The translations under genes were made by a program, and so were the position numbers. Below the pieces are notes generated by a model that was not told where the DNA came from, ran no database searches, and saw only the letters and a list, made by a program, of their open reading frames with translations. This document shows positions 27,685-29,455 of a stretch of 64,000 bases of DNA, one piece after another. The first letter of the stretch is position 1. Each line of letters starts with the position of its first letter. Origin of the DNA: Methanomicrobium sp. W14 (GTDB lineage Archaea > Halobacteriota > Methanomicrobia > Methanomicrobiales > Methanomicrobiaceae); NCBI RefSeq assembly GCF_017875315.1, contig NZ_JAGGMM010000001.1:806001-870000 (forward strand), given 5' to 3'.

Positions 27685-27879
27685 ATGCGGACCATAGAAA
27701 TATCAGATACTGCATATGAAGAGTTGATGTCTCGGAGACTAGGGCGGGAAGCAATCTCAAAGACATTAATTCGGGAACTCAAACCGGTCAAAAAATGTGC
27801 AGCCGTTGAAGAGCTGGAAAGATTACGTAAAGAACCGGGTTCTAAATTATCAGTAGTTGAAAAAAGATTAGGTCTTTAA
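27685..27879 (+). CDS. Putative antitoxin-like small protein
   Basis: A 64-residue charged protein beginning MRTIEISDTAYEELMSRR. This N-terminus resembles VapB-like or related archaeal antitoxins that start with a short DNA-binding strand and continue as helices ending in a toxin-binding tail. The usual VapC toxin is not downstream; instead a RelE/ParE-like gene lies on the opposite strand and the two stop codons overlap. No ribosome-binding site is obvious. Function as an antitoxin is inference from size, pattern and context. Confidence 0.5.
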   Translation: MRTIEISDTAYEELMSRRLGREAISKTLIRELKPVKKCAAVEELERLRKEPGSKLSVVEKRLGL

Positions 27880-28169
27880 CAAGACTTGATCCAATTATGA
27901 TACTCTTTTTCAGTCATTATCTTTAGAACTGTTGCATATCTATTTGGCCTGGTTCCTTCAATAACGTAAATCACGACATGCTTATACGGAACATGCAACC
28001 GCCAATAACCCTTGCAATTTCCTTTTAATTCATGTTTGTTACATGTGGTTACGTTCACGAATAAATATTCTTCAAGGCATTTTTTTATCTTATCTAGTAC
28101 TGCCTTTTTAATAGAGGGATTCTTCTTAAGATAAGCCTCTACATTTCGTTTTATCTCAGCCTCTATCAT
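27876..28169 (-). CDS. RelE/ParE-superfamily toxin-like protein
   Basis: A 97-residue basic protein with the RelE/ParE layout: N-terminal helices (EAEIKRNVEAYLKKN and a second lysine-rich helix), then strands with HELKGNCKGYWRLHVPYKHVVIYVIEG and a C-terminal VLKIMTEKEYHNW. RelE-type toxins cleave mRNA on the ribosome; the conserved K, G-x-W-R-L and Y-(K/R)-x-x-Y-like positions suggest this fold. The adjacent antitoxin-like gene is convergent, not upstream in the same operon as is usual. The toxin fold is fairly convincing; the pairing is not proven. Confidence 0.65.
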   Translation of the reverse strand: MIEAEIKRNVEAYLKKNPSIKKAVLDKIKKCLEEYLFVNVTTCNKHELKGNCKGYWRLHVPYKHVVIYVIEGTRPNRYATVLKIMTEKEYHNWIKSC

Positions 28170-28188: not shown

Positions 28189-28389
28189 TTAATCTAATAA
28201 TTCACTATTGGATAATACGATTAAAAGACTCTCCCACAGTGGAACCCGCCTTTTATACGCCTCTTTAAGAGATACTTTTTTGCGGTATAGGGAGCGGCAA
28301 AAAATAGAATAACCAACAAACATACCAACACCAAAAGCAATTAAAACGGGAATGGACTCTGGTTTGAATGCATAACATAACTCCTTAAA
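28189..28389 (-). pseudogene. Micro-peptide frame, copy 2, without a normal start codon
   Basis: A 66-codon open frame with no ATG, GTG or TTG before its conserved part. It contains AFKPESIPVLIAFGVG, closely matching copy 1 (AFKPEAAPVLIALGVG, 28480-28632). Most of the base differences between the copies in the shared part are synonymous, so this frame was under protein-level selection. It then adds a basic tail, LYRKKVSLKEAYKRR, and a hydrophobic end. A plausible initiation site (AAGGAG then ATG at about 28378) lies one reading frame away, so the gene is frameshifted, recoded or starts unusually. Confidence 0.45.
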
Positions 28390-28479
28390 TCACCTCTAAA
28401 TTTTCCTTATACCGCCCTTTGTTAACTCCTTTTCGATGTGAGTTACGTAAATATTATCACTTCAAAAAATAGATTAAGT

Positions 28480-28632
28480 TTAGTTATGTCTTGCAAAAGC
28501 ATAACCTAAGATAATTCCTACTCCCAGAGCAATCAACACAGGAGCTGCTTCCGGCTTGAATGCTTCTGGCGGTGGGCATACATTAAGAACTGTTCGAGAA
28601 GTTCTTTTTGAATCACTTCTAATCTTTTTCAC
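28480..28632 (-). CDS. Micro-peptide, copy 1, 50 residues
   Basis: A short frame from GTG at 28632: basic N-terminus MKKIRSDSKRTSRTV, a CPPPEAFKPEAAP segment, one hydrophobic helix VLIALGVGIILGYAF and the end ARHN. The GTG itself lies in the purine-rich GGGAGGTGA, too close for a normal ribosome-binding site, so its start is uncertain. It shares its proline-rich and membrane segments with copy 2 (28189-28389). It follows the HTH membrane-protein gene on the same strand and is probably cotranscribed. Function unknown; a membrane-inserted peptide is the simplest reading. Confidence 0.45.
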   Translation of the reverse strand: MKKIRSDSKRTSRTVLNVCPPPEAFKPEAAPVLIALGVGIILGYAFARHN

Positions 28633-28672
28633 CTCCCGGAGGACCTTTATTCCCCCTACAAATTTGACTCAT
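28619..28672 (-). other. Leader-like 17-codon frame overlapping micro-peptide copy 1
   Basis: ATG at 28672 is one base past the stop of the HTH gene and is preceded by GAGGGG at good spacing. It encodes MSQICRGNKGPPGGEKD and ends at 28619, inside the copy 1 frame, which lies in the +1 frame relative to it. It could be a coupling leader peptide or the true start of copy 1 if ribosomes shift by +1. Confidence 0.35.
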
Positions 28673-28673
28673 C

Positions 28674-28976
28674 TTAATTCCCCTCAGACGTTTTCATCAT
28701 AGTAGCTGCAAATGCCAGAAGAAACGCACCTGCACCTATGAGTGCAATTATCAAAAGAAGCGTCTTTAAATCCTCATCACTCATCGTGTTTAGAGCACTA
28801 ACATATTTTCCCACAGTATTTTTATTCAAATCTAAGCGCTCTGCTATTTCCGCGTTATTATAACCTTTATTCCTTTCGAGCATTATTCTCTGAAGAATTT
28901 CTGGGTCTAAATGGTGCTTTAGGGCAATTTCTTCAAAACGCTCTTTTGCACGGTCTTCATCTACATTTAATGCCAT
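28674..28976 (-). CDS. Helix-turn-helix protein with C-terminal membrane anchor
   Basis: A 100-residue protein of unknown function. Residues 18-63 form helices with a helix-turn-helix pattern (YNNAEIAERLDLNKNTVGKY), like the DNA-binding part of resolvases or sigma-70 region 4. A single hydrophobic helix TLLLIIALIGAGAFLLAFAA follows near residues 71-90. A membrane-tethered regulator is the natural reading. A GGAGG lies just upstream of the ATG (plus-strand cctcctt at 28988-28994). Its stop is one base before the ATG of a leader-like frame and it heads the micro-peptide unit. Confidence 0.6.
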   Translation of the reverse strand: MALNVDEDRAKERFEEIALKHHLDPEILQRIMLERNKGYNNAEIAERLDLNKNTVGKYVSALNTMSDEDLKTLLLIIALIGAGAFLLAFAATMMKTSEGN

Positions 28977-29040
28977 GGTTATAAATCCTCCTTTTAAACG
29001 TATTTAGTAACATAGTATTTCATAATATATAAGGTACTTG

Positions 29041-29057
29041 ATAGGATATTGTCCTAT
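29041..29057. promoter_or_regulatory. Inverted repeat between divergent small regulators
   Basis: Arms ATAGGA and TCCTAT separated by five bases, about 65 bases upstream of the HTH gene start. A TATA-like TTATATAT for the minus strand lies near 29021-29030. It may be an operator, but the arms are short. Confidence 0.35.
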
Positions 29058-29141: not shown

Positions 29142-29163
29142 CGTATGTGTACGTACACATACG
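29142..29163. promoter_or_regulatory. Perfect 22-bp palindrome, candidate operator
   Basis: The half-site CGTATGTGTAC is followed directly by its exact reverse complement. It ends 17 bases before the ATG of the gene at 29181 and just before that gene's GGAG. A perfect palindrome of this length at a promoter-proximal site next to a small ribbon-helix-helix-like gene fits autoregulation. Confidence 0.6.
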
Positions 29164-29180: not shown

Positions 29181-29393
29181 ATGGAAAATAGAGAAAAAAA
29201 GAAAAAACGCGATATACATCGAATTAGAAAAAAATTGTATATTACGATTAGCCCTGAGAATTACGAATATATTAAGAATAACGACCTAAATGCTTCCAGA
29301 TTTACAGATAACGCTTTAAATGAACTTAGAAATAAAACAACCAATGAATTGGTCTTTATTTTACAAAACAAGAATGAAACATGGGCCCGTTGA
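29181..29393 (+). CDS. Small basic ribbon-helix-helix-like protein
   Basis: A 70-residue protein with a very basic start (MENREKKKKRDIHRIRKK) followed by LYITISPENYEYIKNNDLNASRFTDNALNEL. That pattern, a short strand LYITIS then two helices with a turn N-D-L-N-A-S, fits ribbon-helix-helix regulators of archaeal mobile elements, although I cannot name a family. GGAG lies 9 bases upstream of ATG. The last 12 bases of the gene, including its stop, lie inside the 3' end of tRNA-Val on the other strand, so Trp-Ala-Arg at its C-terminus is encoded by tRNA sequence. Confidence 0.6.
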   Translation: MENREKKKKRDIHRIRKKLYITISPENYEYIKNNDLNASRFTDNALNELRNKTTNELVFILQNKNETWAR

Positions 29394-29455
29394 GATTCGA
29401 ACTCAAGATCTTCGCCGTGTAAAGGCGACGTCATAACCAGCTAGACCACGAGCCC
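29382..29455 (-). tRNA. tRNA-Val (anticodon TAC)
   Basis: The reverse strand folds as a 74-base cloverleaf. The acceptor stem is GGGCTCG with CGGGCCC, allowing one G-T pair; the anticodon stem is CGCC/GGCG around loop TTTACAC, giving anticodon TAC; the T loop contains TTCGAATC. The discriminator is A and CCA is not encoded. Its 3' end abuts the small-gene pocket at lower coordinates. Confidence 0.93.

Follow-up and report, generated by a model that had tools for sequence, protein, structure and literature searches.

Transmembrane transcription regulators (TTR proteins) and co-component systems, among them ToxR-ToxS and the membrane-bound regulators of Sulfolobus, combine an N-terminal helix-turn-helix (HTH) domain with a membrane helix and sometimes are accompanied by an adjacent small membrane partner (PMC10269533, PMC6396743). 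The Panacea family comprises small transmembrane (TM) peptide toxins, which depolarise membranes, together with antitoxins, some with an HTH domain; in PanA/PanT the regulator gene is located on mobile DNA beside the gene for a small peptide with a charged N-terminal part and a C-terminal helix (PMC8832971). Archaeal 'dark matter' islands and tRNA-targeted integrated elements contain small, rapidly evolving genes for membrane proteins at the 3′ ends of tRNA genes, and the ends of the elements are marked by displaced gene fragments (PMC4158269; Islander, PMC4383910).

A locus that resembles these systems was analysed in a 64,000-nucleotide stretch of DNA from Methanomicrobium sp. W14 (positions 806,001 to 870,000 of contig NZ_JAGGMM010000001.1), which is termed the window. 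Compared with ToxR-ToxS and the Sulfolobus regulators, the module is without an outside sensor domain, has a partner of 50 residues with one helix, includes an extra micro-ORF, appears to be mobile with a single putative operator, and displayed no sequence relation to them. In contrast to Panacea, the regulator itself is in the membrane and the toxicity of the peptide is putative; no Pfam or NCBIfam match to the Panacea/DUF4065 domain was obtained with the HTH protein. The module differs from tRNA-targeted elements in being a minimal 1.2-kb unit with no integrase and in its repeated use of the atpD 3′ end. From its sequence, the locus is tentatively best read as a mobile, self-regulated, defence- or toxin-antitoxin-like module of the Methanomicrobiales that is carried as hot-spot cargo and in which the TM peptide would be the membrane effector. 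The features of the locus and its surroundings are as follows:

29382 to 29455, minus strand: tRNA-Val(TAC), the 3′ end of which borders the accessory slot (ARAGORN; Rfam tRNA).
29181 to 29393, plus strand: small ORF, RHH-like by eye, a slot resident that reads into the tRNA 3′ end; 47 of the 232 genomes have homologues.
29042 to 29056, minus strand: candidate operator, palindrome TAGGACAATATCCTA; TAG-N9-CTA in four of five loci.
29024 to 29032, minus strand: TATA-like box TTATATATT, from the sequence.
28674 to 28976, minus strand: HTH protein of 100 residues with one C-terminal membrane helix, a probable autoregulator (profile searches; AlphaFold for the HTH part).
28619 to 28672, minus strand: micro-ORF MSQICRGNKGPPGGEKD with invariant GxKGPP, starting 1 nt after the HTH stop; KGPP is common to all five loci.
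28632 to 28636, minus strand: Shine-Dalgarno-like GGAGG for the TM peptide, within the micro-ORF (from the sequence).
28480 to 28632, minus strand: single-helix membrane peptide, copy 1, 50 residues from GTG at 28632; ATT at 28623 where relatives have ATG.
28189 to 28389, minus strand: copy 2 of the TM-peptide core, with a C-terminal extension and no in-frame start; a probable remnant.
27876 to 28169, minus strand: YafQ/ParE-like toxin gene, an older slot resident (Pfam YafQ_toxin, E 1.4e-5, below cutoff).
27685 to 27879, plus strand: VapB-like antitoxin ORF, tail to tail with the toxin gene (Pfam VAPB_antitox, E 0.0035, below cutoff).

HTH profiles matched the window's HTH protein at E 2e-4, below cutoff, and the HTH part was modelled by AlphaFold with pLDDT values of 82–90. 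Foldseek searches with this model returned nothing below E 0.001, the best matches being HTH domains of the MarR/LuxR type. As in TTR proteins, a single polypeptide carries the DNA-binding domain as well as a membrane helix (KD19 2.3–2.9). A profile search of 232 Methanomicrobiales genomes located the gene in six, which belong to five genera, and the carriers include Methanoculleus sp. SM3-B2, Methanogenium marinum DSM 15558 and Methanocorpusculum parvum XII; a seventh, weak match (E 8.7e-7) in a 193-codon frame was left out of the count. No more members with the small-protein layout were recovered among 295 genomes sampled from the phylum. The five full-length copies all have one terminal membrane helix with 9–10 residues beyond it, a topology that is based on hydropathy only. 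The sixth copy (M. parvum) no longer has the helix, and no peptide was detected behind it. Differences between the window and Methanoculleus genes at codon positions 1/2/3 number 18/9/56, a distribution that points to strong purifying selection on the HTH gene.

Each of the five full-length HTH genes is followed on the same strand, about 40–80 nt downstream, by a peptide ORF of 49–53 residues, and the peptides of all five loci end, as judged by hydropathy, in one hydrophobic helix and then 1–4 residues. Of random 350-nt stretches taken from the same DNA, 0.55% contained an ORF that fits this description, and chance was rejected as the source of the HTH and peptide pair. A profile built from three of the peptides (core P-x-E-A-F-x-P-E-A) recovered the fourth at E = 7e-8 and matched copy 2 at E = 1.7e-5, in each case among 2,698 frames. 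Homology of the Methanoculleus peptide was not detectable with this profile (E 3.8), and the likeness is in place, size and topology only. When genomes were searched with the peptide only, the sole stand-out was the G030 copy next to its HTH gene (E 0.0135); chance probably accounts for the remaining matches listed, which extend to E = 1. The original prediction envisaged a module of a 100-residue HTH protein with one membrane helix and, downstream on the same strand, two small peptides. The HTH ORF was found as described, and homologues of the peptide motif outside the locus are located directly behind the HTH-TM gene. As homologues exist elsewhere and the HTH gene is under purifying selection, the module of a membrane-tethered regulator and a membrane peptide is considered real, with one peptide instead of two.

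The peptide with the AFKPE...GVG...GY core was located at 28480 to 28632 on the minus strand (copy 1), but the reading of two functional micro-peptides is not supported. The frame of copy 2 includes no ATG, GTG or TTG from the preceding stop up to the core, the tool-listed ORF starts within the core (MFVGYS..), and the other loci each carry one TM peptide compared to the two core copies in the window. The predicted excess of third-position differences in the core was reproduced: the copies differ in 26 core codons at positions 1/2/3 by 9/3/17, an excess (17 of 29 differences) with P = 0.0045, and the first 18 core codons give dN = 0.17 with dS saturated. Copy 2 is regarded as the leftover of a duplication that formerly was selected as protein and, because there is no start codon in frame, as a probable remnant instead of an intact gene. 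Copy 1 has an ATT, preceded by the GGAGG Shine-Dalgarno sequence and 8 nt, at the position of the relatives' ATG, and its sole GTG falls within that Shine-Dalgarno sequence. As the peptide starts with ATT where others have ATG, the window's own copy of the module may be partly inactive or dead, the starts of both peptides being doubtful. That the copy is a decaying relic in which the HTH gene is functional and the peptides no longer are made is a serious possibility in view of these two altered starts; the third-position bias that is retained between the copies, the potential of GTG 28632 or ATT to serve as a start, and the intact palindrome and HTH gene weigh against it.

A micro-ORF intervenes between the HTH and peptide genes at the five intact loci, starting from −8 to +2 nt relative to the HTH stop, and the GxKGPP motif is invariant in all five. 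None of 2000 shuffles contained any tetrapeptide common to all five micro-ORFs, which rules out chance as their source. The third component of the module elsewhere is not a second copy of the peptide, as the original layout suggested, but a different micro-ORF that had gone unnoticed. In Methanoculleus, the micro-ORF frame continues into the TM peptide. Gly-Pro-Pro-Gly/Asp is a strong context for ribosome pausing. Two adjacent prolines are reported to be the shortest common pause signal (PMC6544042). Given these pausing properties, it is an appealing idea that the micro-ORF is a leader that controls how much of the peptide is translated, and this probably is its role. It is possible, if somewhat doubtful, that GxKGPP instead is the trace of a conserved RNA element, a GGNGG/CCNCC hairpin able to pair with the Shine-Dalgarno sequence. 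The GGG and AAA codons are the same in all five loci, and an upstream stem of 5–6 pairs can form in all of them with exchanged pairs (A-U/U-A, G-U/U-A). However, an open frame with a start codon between −8 and +2 relative to the HTH stop recurs in five of five loci, folding is not clearly stronger than in shuffles (z −1.6 to 0.1), and third positions vary in the proline codons and in the second glycine codon. Peptide pausing and an RNA hairpin are not separable with five sequences, and the G-rich/C-rich hairpin may compete with the Shine-Dalgarno sequence.

A 15-bp palindrome of the form TAG-N9-CTA is positioned upstream of the TATA-like box, 59–80 nt before the HTH start, in four of five loci. 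Neither this palindrome nor the tRNA-Val 3′ end at 29382 had been part of the original prediction. Any such palindrome arm was shared in 2 of 3000 shuffle sets, a test that is partly post hoc because the pattern was first spotted by eye. The TAGGA type occurs in the window and in Methanoculleus, in which the recognition helix reads NTVGKYV, and the TAGTCA type accompanies NT[VI]NKYV at the other loci. The exact sequence TAGGACAATATCCTA is present once in the window's own genome, and the related palindrome TAGTCANNNTRACTA once each in carriers G107, G056 and G030, at the module position, with zero occurrences in five other genomes. Because each of the carrier genomes searched has the palindrome at a single place, the most likely role of the HTH protein is autoregulation, with its own operon as the only target. 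A scan for terminators and promoters yielded nothing exceeding shuffles.

The position of the palindrome directly upstream of the TATA box is activator-like, and this bears on an unlikely reading in which the two proteins form a non-toxic co-component signalling pair similar to ToxR/ToxS: the peptide would tune or stabilise the regulator, and the element would sense the state of the membrane through it. Methanomicrobia commonly have membrane-tethered HTH regulators, some with a small partner (PMC10269533), and purifying selection on both the HTH and the helix would suit such a pair. However, the 9–10 residues past the helix leave no ToxR-like sensor domain beyond the membrane, and the unique palindrome provides no evident targets outside the module.

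The HTH start is located 295–488 nt downstream of a tRNA or atpD 3′ end on the same strand in the five intact loci; the neighboring gene is a tRNA in four (Val, Val, Thr, Ile) and atpD in one. Downstream of atpD in M. marinum are three repeats of the 3′ end of this gene, with identities of 87%, 79% and 79%, and the first interval between the repeats (1,220 bp) contains the module and nothing else. Arrays of atpD 3′-end repeats with other cargo are present in four other Methanogenium genomes. Displaced tRNA fragments or target repeats were not found at the module's tRNA loci, the window included, and the only displaced tRNA fragment is at L097, which has other cargo. Therefore, we infer integration at the window site from the position and the patchy distribution of the module. 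The tRNA/atpD location resembles that of archaeal integrated elements, and the M. parvum copy has an archaeal phage integrase-like gene in its vicinity (E 7.9e-6, slightly short of the cutoff). Nevertheless, it is improbable that the module is the surviving end of an integrated virus or plasmid and served it as a cassette for control or superinfection exclusion: an integrase was not noticed at the other loci examined, no relatives of the module were found in 50,697 phage records, 72,556 plasmids or IMG/VR viral contigs, and the M. marinum 1.2-kb unit contains nothing besides the module.

The surroundings are compatible instead with the preferred defence- or toxin-antitoxin-like module. The second repeat interval of M. 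marinum encodes a SIR2-nSTAND protein with a ThsA-like match (E 1e-21) and the third encodes ParE and HicB, and ThsB_TIR (E 2e-26) is present in a sister Methanogenium array. The M. parvum copy is situated among pVip, AbiA, a Csa3-type CARF protein and a TPR protein of defence models. The tRNA-Val slot equivalent to that of the window is filled by other genes in G037 and G060, and in G060 one of these, next to the same toxin-like gene, encodes a HEPN/Ymh family protein that matches defence models. In PADLOC-DB, the HTH protein showed only generic HTH/CARF similarity (E ≥ 6e-4) and the peptides had no match, and Pfam, NCBIfam, PHROGs and PADLOC contain no model specific for the module. The 'signalling or antagonism' function that was proposed originally is narrowed by the tRNA/atpD hot spots, by the defence or toxin-antitoxin neighbors at several of them, and by a putative operator that is present once per genome searched.

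Toxicity, defence, DNA binding, autoregulation and helix-helix contact are what we infer from the sequences. The membrane-held HTH protein would bind the palindrome, regulate its own operon alone and restrain the TM peptide via helix-helix contact. A trigger, for example a virus attacking the membrane, or the disappearance of the regulator would free the peptide or cause it to be made, and the peptide then would damage or depolarise the membrane so that the infected cell is halted by abortive infection or toxin-antitoxin logic. Through a Pro-Pro pause, an RNA hairpin adjoining the peptide's Shine-Dalgarno sequence, or both, the micro-ORF leader probably would set how much of the peptide is translated. 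In its fullest form, which is rather unlikely, the module would be a minimal mobile immune switch: a membrane-tethered repressor would read the membrane state directly, act through one operator on its own operon alone, and hold back or free a 50-residue membrane-killing peptide, the translation of which would be gated by the GPP-pausing micro-ORF. Few defence systems of methanogens are understood in detail, and the module is a testable 1.2-kb candidate for immunity or addiction at the membrane in this group; its peptide, its leader-like micro-ORF and its putative operator each can be tested separately.

The tRNA and atpD 3′ ends in Methanomicrobiales are minable hot spots for defence genes. 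At L073 and L118-L121, the 3′ end of Methanogenium atpD (A-type ATP synthase subunit D) forms a degraded direct-repeat array with defence or toxin-antitoxin cargo between the repeats, and apparently is an undescribed integration hot spot. The small RHH-like ORF was rejected as part of the module, and probably lies outside it, because it is present in 47 genomes with many other cargoes; a homologue has a weak Pfam CcdA match (E 0.014). Among the located copies of this family (29181–29393, L088-L101, L123-L142), 31 of 33 converge on a tRNA 3′ end, the tRNAs being Val, Thr, Ala, Phe, Met, Lys and Arg, and the variable cargo behind them includes type I restriction-modification, HEPN and membrane proteins. 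The family looks like a marker of tRNA-end hot spots. A perfect palindrome, CGTATGTGTACGTACACATACG, at 29142–29163 is directly upstream of the RHH-like gene and a similar sequence precedes the G037 homologue (L090); it is a probable operator. At L097 (8987–10581), the 3′ part of tRNA-Met, 46 nt, is repeated about 1.5 kb downstream, and the repeats flank a very small unit of an RHH-like and a RelE-like gene. Homologues of the YafQ/ParE-like gene that are 77–78% identical occupy the same tRNA-Val slot in G037 and G060. In three genomes (27685–28169, L090, L100), the YafQ/ParE-like and VapB-like genes are arranged tail to tail with touching ends, and not as one operon.
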